From NCBI GenBank assembly GCA_000991135.1, contig LBST01000012.1, positions 1-48,884 on the forward strand: 48,884 nucleotides of DNA. Direction: 5' to 3'. Under the pieces are notes generated by a model. The model ran no database searches, had not been told where the DNA came from, and worked only from the letters and a program-made list of their open reading frames with translations. The DNA comes from Candidatus Roizmanbacteria bacterium GW2011_GWC1_37_12 (GTDB lineage Bacteria > Patescibacteriota > Microgenomatia > UBA1406 > GWC2-37-13). The position numbers and the translations under genes were made by a program. This document shows, piece by piece, positions 2,231-33,304 of the stretch (the stretch's first letter is position 1; every line of letters starts with the position of its first letter).

Positions 2231-2858
2231 AAGCTGTCTTGATTCTCTAATCAGCCAGGAAGAAAAACCAGACGAAATCATTGTTATTGACAACAACTCT
2301 ACTGATAGAACTATTGATATTGTCAAAAAATACCCCCAGGTAAAAGTCATCAACGAAAAAAAACAAGGAATTGCATACGCGAGAAATGCCGGATTCAATG
2401 CGGCAACTGGTGACATTCTGGTTAAATGCGACGCCGACTCTAGATTCCCTATTAACTTTATAAAGAACATCAAAAAAAAATTCTCTGACAGTAATTCAAT
2501 TGTTGGTCTGTCGATGCCGCTTCTTGTCTATGATTTGCCAGGCGCCAGTAAATCTCTTTTCCCTTTTTACCTTTATGTATTGATACCAAGACTTATTATG
2601 GGATTTTACCCGTTGTTGACATGTTATGCGATAAAAAAGAATGCTTGGGAAAAAATTAAGAAAGAAGTCTGCCTTGACGATAAAAAGATTCATGAAGATA
2701 TTGACCTTTCTTTTCATATAAAAAAGGTCGGAAAAATATTGCACGATTCAAAAACTATTCTTATGACTTCTGGAAGGCGGATAAAATACAATCCTAAATC
2801 TTTCTTTATCGAATATACGCTGATATTCTTTAAGATGTTGAAAAATCACTCATCTTGA
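2187..2858 (+). CDS. Family 2 glycosyltransferase
   Basis: A 223-residue GT-A glycosyltransferase. It starts at GTG 2187 directly with SVIIPVFNEE, without the few residues that usually precede this strand. DNNSTDRT is the donor loop, CDADSR the metal site and HEDIDLSFHIKK the catalytic-base region. A hydrophobic stretch (about 118-150) may bind membrane. It overlaps the GT4 gene by 44 nt in another frame and overlaps the ligase gene convergently by 29 nt. No good Shine-Dalgarno site precedes the GTG, so translation may depend on coupling to the GT4. The junction looks like a deletion that fused two genes. Confidence 0.75.
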   Translation: MSVIIPVFNEEKYIKSCLDSLISQEEKPDEIIVIDNNSTDRTIDIVKKYPQVKVINEKKQGIAYARNAGFNAATGDILVKCDADSRFPINFIKNIKKKFSDSNSIVGLSMPLLVYDLPGASKSLFPFYLYVLIPRLIMGFYPLLTCYAIKKNAWEKIKKEVCLDDKKIHEDIDLSFHIKKVGKILHDSKTILMTSGRRIKYNPKSFFIEYTLIFFKMLKNHSS

Positions 2859-4596
2859 TAAGTTCTTTTAGAGTCGTTACCTCTTGAGGATTTTTGTCGT
2901 CACGAAATCTTTCTAATCTTGGAAAACGAAGGGCTAAGCCGGCCGTATGAACAGGAGATTTGGTAATTTCGTCGGCTCGAATCTCAACTATTATTTTTGG
3001 TTCGATCCAAACATCACACTCCATCATTTTATCAACAAAATAATCCTTTGGTTTGTTTTTAATTCTTAATTCTAAACTCTTGATTCTTAATTCTTTCCAC
3101 TCTTCATCAGTTAACCCTGTCCCAATTTTAGCAATAGTAACAAACCTATCTTCTTTTTCATCCCTCAATCCGACCAAAAACGCCCCCATCCCAAAAACAG
3201 TTCTTTTACCCTTACCAAAATCGTACCCCATCACCAAACAGTCGATCGTGTCTTTAATTTTTGAAGAATAACTCCTCTTATACTTGATCCAGTTCCATTC
3301 GCGGGCGCCAGGCTTGTAAATTCCGGTGATTTTCTTTGCCAAAACTCCCTCCAACCCTTTTTCCAAGGCCTCGTCGAATAGTTTTTCTAATTTTTCTTGA
3401 TTTTCAACCTCTTCCTCGTCGGCAATGACAACTGTTTCTTTTAATAAATCTCTTTTTGTGGCAATCGAGCTCTCGAGGGCTTTTCTTCTTTCAATAAAAG
3501 GTCTGTTGATAAAATTTTCTCCGTCTTTGTAGAGAAGTTCAAAGGAAAACAACCTCAAAGGAATCTCTTTAGCCATTTTTTCAATATCATATTTTCTCTT
3601 TCTCTGGACCGTTTCTTGAAAAGGCAAGAATTCTTTCCTTTTTACGTTATAGCCTACCGCCTCTCCTTCAAAAATGATTTCCTTTGCTTTGACTTGCTTT
3701 TTTACTCCCTCGACGATGTCCGGATAGATATAAGTAACATCTTCTAAGCTGCGAGAAAAAAGCTTGACTTCAGGGACTGTCCTTAAAGGGTCTGTCCTTA
3801 AAAGGACAGAACCTTTTTTAAAATGAACCTGAAGACGAAAACCATCGAATTTTGGTTCAACTAAACATTTCCCAATTTGTTTTAATATTTCTGCGGCCGA
3901 CGACAAACGCTCCGCCCTCATCATGATTATTGGAGTAAAAACCTTTGGGCCGATCTTGTCTAAAGATTTTATTCCTTTTTCTTTGATAACTCGTCCAATA
4001 AATCCGAGTTCGGGACGGACGTGATAGGCTTTTTCAATCGTCGGCCGGAGGCTTTTATCGCCTTTAAGCATCCATGAATAAGCATCAAGGACTGTCATGT
4101 CGGAAAATCCCATTCTAATATTCCCTGTTGGTAGGCGGACCAAGAAACGGGAAGATAAAGAATCAAGCTGGCGGAGCAGTTGAGATAATAAGCCTTTTTT
4201 AATGTCTTGGCTCCCGACGCCTGACGACGTTGCCAGTCTGTAAAAGATCTCATAGACCTCAACTATTTCTAAATCTTTTTCTTCAAAAGAAGAATATTGT
4301 TTTTTAAAATTCTCAACCGTCTCCCCCAGATCGCCCCTTTTTTTAAACTCTTTTTCAAAATAGCTTTTTTCTATATTGAGAGCTGATATAATGGCTTTAA
4401 TAATCGTTTTCTCGGCCATACCAAAATCGATACCCTCGTACGCGGGTCTCACCCGCCCTTGGAGTAAATAAACTACTTTTTCGATTTCTTCGGGAGTTAA
4501 TTTTTTAAAAAGATCGGCCAAAATTCGAGTGATTTCCAGCCGTGAAGAAACCTGGCTGATTTTGTCAAAATATATTGCTAATTCTGAAAATTTCAT
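2830..4596 (-). CDS. lig: ATP-dependent DNA ligase, archaeal type
   Basis: A 588-residue ligase that seals nicks using ATP. Residues 1-200 form the DNA-binding domain seen in archaeal and eukaryotic ligase I. The adenylated lysine is K249 in motif I (EPKFDGFR); downstream lie the nucleotidyltransferase and OB domains, ending with the typical TAGLALRFPRLERFRDDK. Between motif I and VKLFSRSLEDVT there is an extra stretch (about 263-275, SVLLRTDPLRTVP) encoded by a palindromic repeat at 3774-3816. A Leu/Lys/Ile-rich stretch near the C-terminal end is encoded by an AT-rich repeat at 3061-3095. Bacteria normally use NAD ligase LigA; ATP ligases of this type occur in CPR lineages. Confidence 0.93.
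   Translation of the reverse strand: MKFSELAIYFDKISQVSSRLEITRILADLFKKLTPEEIEKVVYLLQGRVRPAYEGIDFGMAEKTIIKAIISALNIEKSYFEKEFKKRGDLGETVENFKKQYSSFEEKDLEIVEVYEIFYRLATSSGVGSQDIKKGLLSQLLRQLDSLSSRFLVRLPTGNIRMGFSDMTVLDAYSWMLKGDKSLRPTIEKAYHVRPELGFIGRVIKEKGIKSLDKIGPKVFTPIIMMRAERLSSAAEILKQIGKCLVEPKFDGFRLQVHFKKGSVLLRTDPLRTVPEVKLFSRSLEDVTYIYPDIVEGVKKQVKAKEIIFEGEAVGYNVKRKEFLPFQETVQRKRKYDIEKMAKEIPLRLFSFELLYKDGENFINRPFIERRKALESSIATKRDLLKETVVIADEEEVENQEKLEKLFDEALEKGLEGVLAKKITGIYKPGAREWNWIKYKRSYSSKIKDTIDCLVMGYDFGKGKRTVFGMGAFLVGLRDEKEDRFVTIAKIGTGLTDEEWKELRIKSLELRIKNKPKDYFVDKMMECDVWIEPKIIVEIRADEITKSPVHTAGLALRFPRLERFRDDKNPQEVTTLKELIKMSDFSTS
3774..3816. repeat. Palindromic element inside the ligase gene
   Basis: Positions 3785-3816 form a hairpin with 15-bp arms (one mismatch, g3790/a3811) and a 2-nt loop; the core is TCTGTCCTT / AAGGACAGA. 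A partial direct copy (CTGTCCTTAAA) precedes it at 3777-3787. The same core occurs in gltX at 22629-22654. The insert codes for about 13 residues absent from the ligase family pattern I know between motif I and VKLFSR. Confidence 0.75.
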
Positions 4597-6097: not shown

Positions 6098-6459
6098 AAT
6101 TACAAGCCGCCGACGTCAATGACGCTTTCGGAACCGTCGATCCGCCAAAGGGAATGAATTTTGGCGGGTCAGACCCGGTCGCTGGTTTTGGGACTCTTAT
6201 CGGCTTTGGCATTAGAATGTTTATTATTATCGCCGGAATTTTTTTATTGGTCTATCTCTTTTGGGGCGCTTTTGACTGGATCACATCAAGCGGAGAAAAA
6301 GAAAAGGTCAGCAAGGCACAAAACAAAATCACCAATGCTCTTATTGGAATAATCTTGATCTTTGCCGTTATTGTTGTTTTTCAAGTTCTTGCCGGAAATA
6401 TTTTGAAAATTATTGTTCCCACCGATCAAGGCTGGCAGCTTAATCTTCCTACTTTGTAG
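6094..6459 (+). CDS. VirB2/TrbC-like two-helix membrane protein
   Basis: A 121-residue partner of the preceding gene. A 35-residue polar N-terminus (Gly/Pro-rich) is followed by a helix at about 38-60, the loop SSGEKEKVSKAQNKI, and a second helix at about 83-105. The loop matches the GGEKEKVEKAKKRI-type linker of VirB2-like proteins in CPR genomes. The C-terminal VPTDQGWQLNLPTL is outside or periplasm-like. It converges on the kinase gene with an 11-nt overlap. A paired pilin-like operon facing a Fic gene is notable, but a functional link is only inferred. Confidence 0.6.
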   Translation: MKLQAADVNDAFGTVDPPKGMNFGGSDPVAGFGTLIGFGIRMFIIIAGIFLLVYLFWGAFDWITSSGEKEKVSKAQNKITNALIGIILIFAVIVVFQVLAGNILKIIVPTDQGWQLNLPTL

Positions 6460-7201
6460 TGACTTTCGTTCCTTGAAGTCCCAGATCATTAGTAATATAG
6501 TTGTCTATTCCCTTATCCGCCAATCTCAAACATTGTTTTACTTTATATTTCATTCCGCCTGTCACATCGATTCCTTTTCCCTTATGAAAGACTCCTTCCA
6601 TCTTAGAAAACGTCTTTTTTGTTATAGTTTGAATTGTCATACCAGGCCGACCGGCAACCTCCGAGGTTACCCCTGGCGTGATACCAAGAAAAATGGCTTT
6701 TTCGACTTTAAATCCTCGATTTTTAAAATGAATAGCAACGTCGACCAAAAACTTATCCATTGACAGAATAGAAATTCCCAATTCTTGATCATCGACCAAA
6801 TCGGCGTGGAAAACAGGGGTAATATTATTTACCAACAATTTAGCAATATAACCATCTAACAATTTAACCATTTGCCCATTCTTATATTTGGCTACCTTAT
6901 CCGGTTCAACCGAAACTACTCTCAAACCAACATTATTTAACGAAGAAACAACTATTTTGTTTAGTTTTTTTACAGCGTTTTTTATCTCCCGTAGACCTTT
7001 TTCCAAATCATCCTTATATTTCTCCGCCAGCGGATGGCCAAATCCACCGGCGCCGGTAAAAATTATTAAAGAAAAATTTCTTTGAATTTCTTTTATTTGC
7101 TTAGATAATCTCTTAATCTCATAGTTTCTTGCTTTATTTATTTTTGTTTTATCAGAAATCAAAGAACCGCCTAACTTAATTAAAACTAGTTTTTTCATCA
7201 T
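6449..7201 (-). CDS. Isopentenyl phosphate kinase-like amino acid kinase
   Basis: A 250-residue member of the amino-acid-kinase fold. It opens with LVLIKLGGSLISDK, has GAGGFGHPLAEKY with H56 at the place of the His that marks isopentenyl phosphate kinases, and ends with GIDVTGGMKYKV. These are the IPK signatures; IPK phosphorylates isopentenyl phosphate to the diphosphate in the archaeal alternative mevalonate route. A related small-molecule kinase is possible. Its start overlaps the stop of the Fic-MerR gene (TAATG), so the two form an operon. No other mevalonate gene is in the window. Confidence 0.75.
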   Translation of the reverse strand: MMKKLVLIKLGGSLISDKTKINKARNYEIKRLSKQIKEIQRNFSLIIFTGAGGFGHPLAEKYKDDLEKGLREIKNAVKKLNKIVVSSLNNVGLRVVSVEPDKVAKYKNGQMVKLLDGYIAKLLVNNITPVFHADLVDDQELGISILSMDKFLVDVAIHFKNRGFKVEKAIFLGITPGVTSEVAGRPGMTIQTITKKTFSKMEGVFHKGKGIDVTGGMKYKVKQCLRLADKGIDNYITNDLGLQGTKVTTK

Positions 7202-8300: not shown

Positions 8301-8328
8301 AAAATACGCCCTCGTCAGGGCGTATTTT
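8301..8328 (-). terminator. Rho-independent terminator
   Basis: A perfect 12-bp stem (AAAATACGCCCT / AGGGCGTATTTT) with a CGTC loop. It follows the stop of the 8359-9519 gene by 30 nt on the minus strand and ends in T-rich sequence; the flanking A and T runs allow it to work in both directions. Confidence 0.85.
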
Positions 8329-22399: not shown

Positions 22400-23788
22400 T
22401 TAACCTAATTGACCTAATCTCTTAAGACATTCTTCTTTCCCTAAAATTTCCATTGATTTATTAAGAGGAGGAGAGATTTTTTTGCCGGTGATAGCAACGC
22501 GGAGAGTCATAAAAAATTCTCCTGTTTTAACGTTAAGTTTTTTTACAAGAGCTTGCATCGATTCTCCAATAATGTCTGCTTTCCAATCAGATACTTTTTC
22601 TAACTCTTTATGTATCTCTTTTATATAGGATCTGTCCTTGATCAAGGACAGATCATGAATTGGCTTAAAGAAAAATTCGCAAAGAGGAAGATAGTCGGAA
22701 AGTTTTTTAATTCTTTCTTTTATTAAGGGTATTGTTTTTTCTATCAACTCTACTGGATATTTTTTTTGATAAAAATTATAGATTTGAGTCTTGAGATTTG
22801 AGTCTTGAGATTCTCTTATATGTACCCCGTTCATCCATTCAAGTTTATTAAGATCAAATACCGGTCCAACAGGACTGATATCTTTAAAATCAAATAGTTT
22901 AATAAATTCATCTAAAGTAAAAATTTCTTTTCCTTGAGGATGACTCCAACCCATTAGTGCTAAATAGTTTAAGATTACTTCTGGGAAAAAACCCTGTTCT
23001 TGATACCAGGAGACGTTTGTGTGACCTTGTCTTTTGGAAAATTTTGATCGATCTGGATTTCTAATAATCGGGGTGTGAACAAAAACCGGTTTTTCCCAAC
23101 CAAAATATTCGTAAAGTAAGACAATTTTTGCTGATGAGGTTAACCATTCTTCACCCCTAACCATATGGCTAATTTCCATAAGATGATCGTCAACAACAAC
23201 CGCTAGAAAGTACGTTGGGTATCCATCCGATTTCAAAAGTACCTGATCATCTACTGAATTAGAATCAAAAATAACCTCACCTCTCAATTCGTCTTTTATT
23301 TTTATTTTTATATCTTTCGGAACATATAATCTTATTATGTAAGATTCTTTATTTGTTAATTTTTGATCAATGGTTTTTTTATCGAGATTGAGACAGTGTT
23401 TGTCATACATTGGAGGTTTACCTTCTTTTTGCAGTTTTTGCCTTATTTCATCAAGACGATCTTTTGAGCAAAAACAGTAATATGCTTTATTTTTATTTAT
23501 TAATTCTTGAGCATATTTTTTATAAATATCAAGTCTGTCTGATTGACGATATGGTCCGTAAGGACCTGTTTTTCTGACGCTTTCGTCTTCGACTAATTTG
23601 AACCAATCAAGAGCTTTAAAAACTTTTTCTTCAGCATCAGCAACGGTTCTCTCTTTATCAGTATCTTCTATTCTGACAATAAACTTTCCTTTATGTTTAT
23701 GGGCAAAAGCATAATCAAAAAGTACTTGGTAAATAGTACCAATATGGGGATAGCCTGTAGGTGAAATGGCTGCTCTAGTTCTAATCAT
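22400..23788 (-). CDS. gltX: Glutamyl-tRNA synthetase
   Basis: A 462-residue class I synthetase that charges tRNA with glutamate. The HIGH motif is SPTGYPHIGT and the KMSKS motif KFSKRQG. Cys-containing YCFCSKDRLDEI fits the insertion of bacterial GltX. Two repeats lie in the C-terminal anticodon-binding half: a 14-mer tandem repeat at 22781-22813 (RESQDSNLKTQ) and a perfect 26-nt palindrome at 22629-22654 (HDLSLIKDRS). TATAAT lies 7 nt before the ATG, inside the end of the SOD gene. No GatCAB gene is in the window. Confidence 0.95.
   Translation of the reverse strand: MIRTRAAISPTGYPHIGTIYQVLFDYAFAHKHKGKFIVRIEDTDKERTVADAEEKVFKALDWFKLVEDESVRKTGPYGPYRQSDRLDIYKKYAQELINKNKAYYCFCSKDRLDEIRQKLQKEGKPPMYDKHCLNLDKKTIDQKLTNKESYIIRLYVPKDIKIKIKDELRGEVIFDSNSVDDQVLLKSDGYPTYFLAVVVDDHLMEISHMVRGEEWLTSSAKIVLLYEYFGWEKPVFVHTPIIRNPDRSKFSKRQGHTNVSWYQEQGFFPEVILNYLALMGWSHPQGKEIFTLDEFIKLFDFKDISPVGPVFDLNKLEWMNGVHIRESQDSNLKTQIYNFYQKKYPVELIEKTIPLIKERIKKLSDYLPLCEFFFKPIHDLSLIKDRSYIKEIHKELEKVSDWKADIIGESMQALVKKLNVKTGEFFMTLRVAITGKKISPPLNKSMEILGKEECLKRLGQLG
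22629..22654. repeat. Perfect palindrome inside gltX
   Basis: GATCTGTCCTTGA followed immediately by its reverse complement, 13-bp arms without a loop. It shares TCTGTCCTT / AAGGACAGA with the ligase element at 3785-3816. Confidence 0.8.
22781..22813. repeat. 14-nt tandem repeat inside gltX
   Basis: GATTTGAGTCTTGA occurs twice and then starts a third time, 33 nt in all, so the reading frame is kept (11 codons). A matching 33-nt, 14-mer array lies in trmD. Confidence 0.75.
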
Positions 23789-23796
23789 GAATCAAA

Positions 23797-24411
23797 TTAT
23801 ACCCGATTTTTGGAAGAAAAATTTTCCTCGACTTTTTTCCAATCGAGGTTTTCAAAAAAAGCATCAATATAACTCCCACGGTTGACTCCATAATCGATAA
23901 AATAAGCGTGTTCATAAGTATCAAGAGCTAGTATCGGATAAGCGTGCCAGACCGGAAAAGTATTCTGGGCATCACCAAGATAGTTAAATAATCTCTCCTC
24001 TTTATAATTCCATGCCGTCCAAACCCAACCGCGGGCAGAGATTCCGGTTGCCTTTAGATCTTTTTTGTAAGCGTCAAAACTGCCAAAATCTTTCTCAATC
24101 TGCTTCAACAAGGTACCGTCTGGTACCTTGCCTCCTCTGCCTCCGAGGTGAGAAAAATAGATTTCATGATTAATCACTCCACCCCAGGCAAAAGATAGTT
24201 CCATTTTAAGCTCTCGAAACTGTGAATAGGTTTGATTAGCTTTTGTCAAATCATCGTCAGTCAACCCTATAAGTTTTTCCTGAATCTCATTATATTTATT
24301 GACATATCCTTGATAGAGCTTTAAGTGTTCATCAACTGTTTTTTTGGAAATCCCTTTCATGGAAAATATCGAATCGGAAAATTTTTTTGCCTCCCATTTT
24401 ATAATTTTCAT
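23797..24411 (-). CDS. Fe/Mn superoxide dismutase
   Basis: A 204-residue enzyme that turns superoxide into O2 and H2O2. Metal ligands are H29, H82, D164 and H168 (DEHL, NHEIYF, ALDTYEHAY). A strong Shine-Dalgarno site (AAGGAGG) precedes the ATG. It follows the cupredoxin gene by 21 nt, suggesting one redox-defence operon. A hairpin with 9-bp arms lies inside at 24109-24130. Whether Fe or Mn is used cannot be told. Confidence 0.92.
   Translation of the reverse strand: MKIIKWEAKKFSDSIFSMKGISKKTVDEHLKLYQGYVNKYNEIQEKLIGLTDDDLTKANQTYSQFRELKMELSFAWGGVINHEIYFSHLGGRGGKVPDGTLLKQIEKDFGSFDAYKKDLKATGISARGWVWTAWNYKEERLFNYLGDAQNTFPVWHAYPILALDTYEHAYFIDYGVNRGSYIDAFFENLDWKKVEENFSSKNRV
24109..24130. repeat. 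Hairpin inside the SOD gene
   Basis: Arms CAAGGTACC and GGTACCTTG (9 bp, perfect) with a GTCT loop. It codes for part of GGKVPDGTLLK. Unlike the other elements, the protein is at most about one residue longer than the family pattern, so it may be chance. Confidence 0.45.
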
Positions 24412-32511: not shown

Positions 32512-32528
32512 TTAACCTACGAGGTTAA
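32512..32528. repeat. REP-like hairpin, left of the transposase
   Basis: TTAACCT-ACG-AGGTTAA, a 7-bp stem with a 3-nt loop, embedded in a longer direct repeat (AGCCTCAATTAACCTACGAG...) whose partner lies right of the transposase at 33279-33308. Confidence 0.7.
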
Positions 32529-32634
32529 ATAGGTAGCATATCGATAGTTTTTTATTGCTCTAATACTCCGTATGTATATTGATGTTGCGTATTGTCTACA
32601 GACAAACGTTGTTAAATATTATAGAAATAAAAAC

Positions 32635-33276
32635 ATGAGTAATAGATTTGTTCAAGGTTATTTTTACCATATTTTTAATAAAAGCATTTCTAATTTTCAA
32701 ATATTTGGAAGAAATGAAAATAAGCAAAGATTTTTAAATGTTCTTGACTACTATGATAAAGAAAAAATCAATCTAAGTTTCTCTGCTTTTTTAAAAGATA
32801 ATGAGAAATTTAAAGCTAATATTTTATCACCTAAAAATAATTCCTTTGTTAAATTTATCTCTTATTCTATAATGCCTGACCATTATCATCTTTTAGTAAA
32901 AATATTAGATGATAATAAGGTGTCAAAATACATTAGTGATGTTGAGAATAGCTACTCTAGATTTTTTAACTTAAAGCTTGAAAGAAAAGGACCCTTATGG
33001 CAATCGAGATTTAAAGCAGTAAAGATAGAAACAGAAGAACAATTGTTGCATGTTTCAAGGTATATTCATTTAAATCCAACAACCGCTAGTTTAGTAGAAA
33101 AACCTGAAGATTGGGAATTTTCCTCTTATAGACAAATAATTACCGATCCATTTATATTAAAAGAGTATCTAAAAGAAATACCGATATCTAATAATTTTAC
33201 CTATAAAAGATTCGTAGAAAGAAACAAGGATTATCAAAGAAAGTTAAAATTAATTAAAAAGTTAATTCTTGAATAA
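32635..33276 (+). CDS. REP-associated tyrosine transposase (RAYT)
   Basis: A 213-residue Y1 transposase, starting at ATG 32635 (MSNRFVQGYFYHIFN). The HUH motif is MPDHYHLLVK; the catalytic Tyr lies in SYSRFFNLK; GPLWQSRFKAV and VSRYIHLNP complete the IS200-like/RAYT pattern. Such enzymes cut and move REP hairpins. It is flanked on both sides by near-identical REP-like hairpins, so enzyme and targets form one unit between the PAP2 and LD-carboxypeptidase genes. About 150 nt upstream of it holds only the left repeat. Confidence 0.9.
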   Translation: MSNRFVQGYFYHIFNKSISNFQIFGRNENKQRFLNVLDYYDKEKINLSFSAFLKDNEKFKANILSPKNNSFVKFISYSIMPDHYHLLVKILDDNKVSKYISDVENSYSRFFNLKLERKGPLWQSRFKAVKIETEEQLLHVSRYIHLNPTTASLVEKPEDWEFSSYRQIITDPFILKEYLKEIPISNNFTYKRFVERNKDYQRKLKLIKKLILE

Positions 33277-33287
33277 TCTAGCTTCAA

Positions 33288-33304
33288 TCAACCTACGAGG
33301 TTAA
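33288..33304. repeat. REP-like hairpin, right of the transposase
   Basis: Same element as 32512-32528 with one stem mismatch (TCAACCT-ACG-AGGTTAA), direct orientation. The surrounding direct repeat spans about 33279-33308. Confidence 0.7.

Follow-up and report, generated by a model that had tools for sequence, protein, structure and literature searches.

Palindromes in the DNA ligase gene and other genes of a Candidatus Roizmanbacteria genome as probable REP-like elements of a RAYT-type transposase

Introduction

The GTAG tetranucleotide is essential for the REPs of Escherichia coli. For the palindromes of Rickettsia the mobiliser is, to our knowledge, unknown, and discussion of in-frame insertion into essential genes has centred on that genus. 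RAYT genes are flanked by inverted REPs (Nunvar et al. 2010, PMC2817692), and the importance of GTAG varies in degree between systems (PMC8266576). REPs also occur inside genes, including a DNA ligase gene of Opitutus terrae and tRNA synthetase genes, and in recB the REPs of two Xanthomonas species differ although they sit at about the same place (PMC3733652). Rickettsia palindromic elements (RPE) are about 150 bp long, according to a review (PMC10969869). A narrow literature search for REPs in Patescibacteria found no paper.

Here we describe a family of palindromes in Candidatus Roizmanbacteria bacterium GW2011_GWC1_37_12 (genome G000; 0.99 Mb in 18 contigs). The window, that is the whole stretch of DNA analysed, is contig 12 and comprises 48,884 nucleotides. 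All genomes compared are probably MAGs. We conclude, with a probability of roughly 0.85, that the palindromes found in the window's DNA ligase and gltX genes are copies of a REP-like element belonging to a RAYT-type Y1/HuH transposase of the same genome.

Results

Palindromes in the ligase and gltX genes

The two genes and their elements are positioned as follows.

2830..4596, minus strand: ATP-dependent DNA ligase, 588 aa (TIGR00574, 399 bits; Pfam), with the insert at residues ~262-278
3771..3816, plus strand: REP-like element in the DNA ligase gene, with head GGGACTGTCCTT followed by the hairpin; the minus strand encodes GSVLLRTDPLRTVPE
22400..23788, minus strand: glutamate--tRNA ligase gltX (TIGR00464, 474 bits)
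22622..22667, minus strand: shorter family member in gltX, GATCTGTCCTTGATCAAGGACAGATC plus tail CTATATAAAA, encoding DLSLIKDRSYIK

The ligase hairpin is formed by two 15-nt arms (3785-3799 and 3802-3816) that are separated by 2 nt and are 93% complementary, with one mismatch. The gltX palindrome (22629-22654) is a perfect one of 26 nt, with 13-nt arms that are 100% complementary. An earlier sequence-only reading of the window had described both structures in this form, and the common core that it proposed was recovered as well: CTGTCCTT is present five times in the window, and every copy lies inside the ligase or the gltX palindrome site. A direct repeat, AGGGACTGTCCTTAA / AGGGTCTGTCCTTAA, at 3772-3801 lengthens the ligase element to 3771-3816. 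The window contains five perfect GC-containing palindromes with arms of at least 9 nt, compared with 0-1 in first-order Markov simulations. A palindrome in the superoxide dismutase gene (24109-24130) was considered as an insert and rejected, as it encodes the ordinary SOD residues GGKVPDGTLL. A further perfect palindrome with 12-bp arms, AAAATACGCCCT-CGTC-AGGGCGTATTTT, is located between two genes at 8301-8328 and is terminator-like.

Anatomy and copy number of the family

The full unit is about 46 nt long (46-48 nt) and reads roughly TAGGGACnGTCCTTTTAGGwwCTGTCCTTAAAAGGACAGwwCCTTT; in it, a short T/A spacer separates the head GGGACnGTCC from a 12-bp hairpin. Copies in the opposite phase, AAGGACAGAACC...GGTTCTGTCCTT, and of a shorter form, AAGGACTGTCCTT-n-AAGGACAGTCCTTATATAAAA, were also found. 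The two arms carry TT/AA or AA/TT at the ww position, and pairing is thus kept. When folded as DNA, the unit exceeded all of 200 shuffles in stability (z = -4.8). Only two of its six reading frames are free of stop codons.

The pattern CTGTCCTT-N0-8-AAGGACAG gave eight exact matches in the window's genome, against none for the backwards control. It was found in 7 of 116 genomes (this one and relatives), six of them within the window's genus, with single matches of the controls in three. The composite pattern marked 7 loci in this genome, 10 in G011 and 5 in G001. A covariance model of 47 positions (R1), built from 12 copies, was searched against 20 genomes and gave 33 strand-wise matches in the window's genome and 38 in G011, with none in 12 of the 20. 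The ligase element, itself part of the training set, scored 65 bits, and the gltX site, which had been left out of training, was still recovered with E ~1e-4 within the window. When half-sites are included, about 23 loci are counted in each of the two genomes, those of the window's genome coming from pattern, model and half-site searches plus selected stretches; this is a low copy number for REPs. The genome-wide search thus yielded more than 20 copies beyond the two from which the sequence-only reading had started.

The ligase loop and the gltX site in relatives

The best PDB relative of the ligase is the crystallised Sulfolobus enzyme 2hiv. The insert amounts to 13 residues both against 2hiv and against the empty sister G010, and the earlier claim of about 13 extra residues is thereby borne out. 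Between GFRLQVH and KLFSR, the closest sisters G010, G009 and G004 (83% identical) and several others have only a short loop, and most related ligases are without these residues. The loop of G000 and G011 holds a GGACnGTCC-type sequence, of which G005 has a degenerate version. In another sister clade its occupant is a palindrome of different sequence, GGGTCnGACCC, with AGGGTCTGACCCTCGACGAGGGTCAGACCCT-type sequence seen in G002, G008 and G014; G007, G020 and G025 have A-rich arrays. In a ligase tree computed without the loop, the G000, G011 and G005 rows require at least two changes, the tree leaving the number of gains and losses unfixed. Ligase loops of other species (L060, L074, L076) are filled by A-rich short repeats resembling AAATCCAAAATCC, and TTGATTCTTAATTC-like runs are seen in coding parts of the window's own ligase and gltX (3061-3096 and 22784-22815).

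In gltX, the palindrome adds no residues, and in relatives GltX is longer by about 2 aa at this site. The idea of a residue-adding insertion was consequently rejected for this gene: there is no net gain, and the palindrome occupies existing residues. G005 also has a palindrome at this position of the protein, and the differences between the two are paired (GATCTGTCC/GGACAGATC vs AGACTGTCC/GGACAGTCT). By its identity windows the gene looks like a mosaic, in which residues 1 to about 300 resemble another genus, with ~0.8 identity outside a divergent stretch, and the rest resembles its own genus. The tail CTATATAAAA of the gltX copy is common to copies in unrelated genes; the tail TATATAAAA recurs in the copies of a sortase-like gene, def and rpe, which identifies the gltX palindrome as a member of the family. 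A family palindrome is also present at an identical site of a sortase-like gene in G008, G015 and G014 (L046, L051, L053).

The lack of a net gain in GltX and the shared position in G005 would suit palindromes that are ancestral in these proteins and vertically inherited, with a common core due to coincidence or codon convergence. For the ligase this is refuted, because the residues are missing in the nearest sisters. As a general account it is very unlikely, given the exact copies found where the control had none, the presence of the same DNA at intergenic sites and transposase ends, and the TATATAAAA tail shared by unrelated genes. The REP-like element remains the reading that we prefer for both sites.

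Copies inside genes and at gene junctions

In the window's genome, ten copies lie in-frame within genes confirmed by family models. These genes encode DNA ligase, GltX, peptide deformylase (def), ribulose-phosphate epimerase (rpe), MiaA, prepilin peptidase (pilD), a NAD-dependent epimerase, a DUF359/nucleotidyltransferase protein, a glycosyltransferase and a PMT-type transferase. In G011 there are four (ligase, enolase, MiaA and PMT-type transferase). The enolase insert is restricted to G011, and G001 (75% identical) has an empty loop there. A palindromic deformylase loop, of differing sequence, was seen in both G000 and G011, and the MiaA copies of these genomes occupy two different loops; an empty site was seen for the MiaA loop. 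The miaA gene of G000 also carries in-frame, at G000:C2 ~23300-23425 (L356), a second dispersed element of ~95 nt with ends ACGGG...CCCGT, which occurs as well in G009, G010, G004, G006 and G005 (L357-L372), with many copies in G009 on both strands.

The remaining family copies are located at gene ends and junctions, often immediately 5' of a start codon. Since copies are shifted towards intergenic sites despite a gene-dense genome, insertions that inactivated genes have probably been purged. The copies at junctions, some of them right before a start codon, together with the preservation of palindromicity by compensatory changes, could also be expected of hairpins kept for an RNA function (terminator, attenuator or mRNA stabiliser) and spread by selection instead of transposition. 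We regard this as very improbable, because copies lie within the coding sequence of unrelated genes, where they are read in several frames, and because they flank transposase genes, with a species-specific sequence that tracks the transposase. The latter association is what a REP-like element of a RAYT-type transposase would show.

Y1 transposases and their flanking palindromes

Six genes of the window's genome belong to PF01797 (Y1_Tnp), one of which lies in the window.

32514..32526, no strand: palindrome AACCTACGAGGTT, upstream of the window's transposase
32572..33276, plus strand: Y1 (IS200-like) RAYT-type transposase (PF01797 above cut-off; REP_Tyr_transpos 71.1 bits, cut-off 80)
33290..33302, no strand: palindrome AACCTACGAGGTT, directly 3' of the transposase's stop
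6642..6668, minus strand: in-frame REP of a second family, CCGACCGGCAACCTCCGAGGTT, inside an isopentenyl-phosphate-kinase-like gene (6449-7201, minus strand)

The AACCTACGAGGTT palindromes represent a REP class different from the ligase/gltX family. A sequence nearly identical to the CCGACCGGCAACCTCCGAGGTT REP adjoins, on the 3' side, another Y1 transposase of this genome (L040).

The ligase/gltX family is found at two other Y1 genes. At one of them, the TAG stop codon coincides with the first base of a full unit, TAGGGACGGTCCTTTTAGGAACTGTCCTTAAAAGGACAGTTCCTTTT, whose 46 nt are identical to a stand-alone copy at C6:116993; at the second, GGGACTGTCCC palindromes are found both before the start and after the stop. 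The other four Y1 genes have palindromes of other sequence. L041 and L043 carry the HuH motif HFH and the catalytic Tyr in KYSQYF, and the palindrome of L041 is seen downstream only because the contig ends upstream. The NCBIfam model REP_Tyr_transpos gave 41.2 and 71.1 bits, both below its cut-off of 80. A GTAG or similar tetranucleotide is absent 5' of the palindrome, where TTTAGG or AGGGAC precedes the stem. The named relatives of the transposase are mostly from Gottesman-, Davies-, Levy- and Nomurabacteria.

L043-like Y1 genes (at least 48% identity) are carried by eight genomes of the genus, including this one. In the sisters, each such gene examined has palindromes at one or both ends; they lie on both gene sides at L141, L142, L143, L144, L145 and L146, and on one clear side at L147 and L148. 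These flanking palindromes are genome-specific and match the ligase-loop palindrome of their own genome in five of six cases. Accordingly, many 8-mers are common to the ligase insert and the transposase flanks of the same genome in G000, G011, G002, G008 and G014, and hardly any 8-mers of these inserts recur in flanks of the other type. G005 is the exception, with a ligase insert like the G000/G011 type and unlike the flanks of its own transposase. The exact palindrome occurs in six genomes of the genus, all six with an L043-like transposase (6/0/2/12, Fisher p = 7e-4; p = 0.004 with G001), p-values that are only indicative as the genomes are related. In G001, several family copies were found, yet no transposase of the L043-like class was detected.

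In-frame palindromes in housekeeping genes are a hallmark of RPE (PMC10969869, PMC3733652), and an RPE-like system with an unrelated, unknown mobiliser would make the nearness of the Y1 transposases incidental. The chance of this is very slight, since palindromes of genome-specific, matching sequence flank every L043-like gene examined in the genus. There is good support for pairing the family palindromes, as REPs, with a RAYT-type transposase: the copies are dispersed, bracket transposase genes and have identical stand-alone copies, their sites are empty in sisters, and the type of palindrome changes with the transposase between species.

Discussion

By analogy with its family (PMC8266576), the RAYT-type transposase would recognise the hairpin as single-stranded DNA, then cut and rejoin it, and thereby copy or move it elsewhere. 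Candidate single-stranded substrates are TAGGGACGGTCC... hairpins for the L041/L043-type transposase and TAGGGACGGTCCTTTTAGGAACTGTCCTTAAAAGGACAGTTCC for the L043-type encoded at C10:25342-26046. Insertions that break genes would be lost, and those in flexible loops would persist if translation can pass through them in either of the two stop-free frames, leaving short foreign peptides in ligase, GltX, peptide deformylase, Rpe, MiaA and other proteins. Where the inserts lie suggests that such protein loops are tolerant. Mobility is read here from the comparison of relatives that are only 74-83% identical, among which no transposition event was observed; insertion boundaries are blurred at this distance, and no target site or target duplication can therefore be defined.

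More tentatively, the loops of DNA ligase, peptide deformylase, MiaA and the PMT-type glycosyltransferase might be recurrent landing pads in this lineage, invaded repeatedly and independently by whatever repeat is currently mobilised in a genome. The RAYT palindromes might further be adapted to remain open in coding frames, and the transposase would then routinely add short peptides to essential proteins. We hold this extension to be possible, at somewhat less than even odds.

Empty sites, rival occupants of one protein loop, the palindromes and their candidate transposase are all open to comparison in a single genus, which makes the mechanism directly testable in vitro. The system illustrates how proteins encoded by very small genomes could be reshaped by single-strand transposases.

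The sequence-only reading had proposed a mobile or spreading element like the Rickettsia palindromes. Its first part stands, the element being dispersed, spreading, in-frame in essential genes and empty in sisters. Membership among RPE is not supported, and the likeness to them is a functional analogy only. RPE share with the present family the in-frame position in housekeeping genes at sites that the protein tolerates, but by their reviewed description they measure ~150 bp and belong to Rickettsia, whereas the units described here are of ~46 nt and have a candidate transposase. This length, together with the flanking IS200-like Y1 genes, makes REP/RAYT the closest known kind.

As in REP/RAYT systems (TnpA-REP; PMC2817692, PMC8266576), a Y1/HuH gene is bracketed by short palindromes, the palindromes are dispersed singly or in pairs of opposite orientation, palindromicity is kept through paired changes, and each transposase class has a palindrome of its own. 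Unlike them, the present family has no GTAG tag, ~23 copies instead of the often more than 100, a large intragenic share and a host in a Patescibacteria lineage. IS200/IS605 elements have a transposase of the same family, PF01797, whereas the dispersed copies here consist of the palindrome alone, without the transposase gene. The intragenic GTAG/CGTC REPs (PMC3733652) likewise lie in coding regions, including those of DNA ligase and tRNA synthetases, with different REPs at one recB site; they are of another tag class and phylum, and here, within one genus, a single ligase loop is either empty or filled by arrays or by differing palindromes. Since both flanking REPs (PMC2817692) and intragenic REPs (PMC3733652) have already been described, the present case is a variant, with untagged REPs, transposases below the NCBIfam cut-off and a Patescibacteria host. 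It is new in its lineage, in its type of REP, which is untagged, and in that the same protein loops are used repeatedly.
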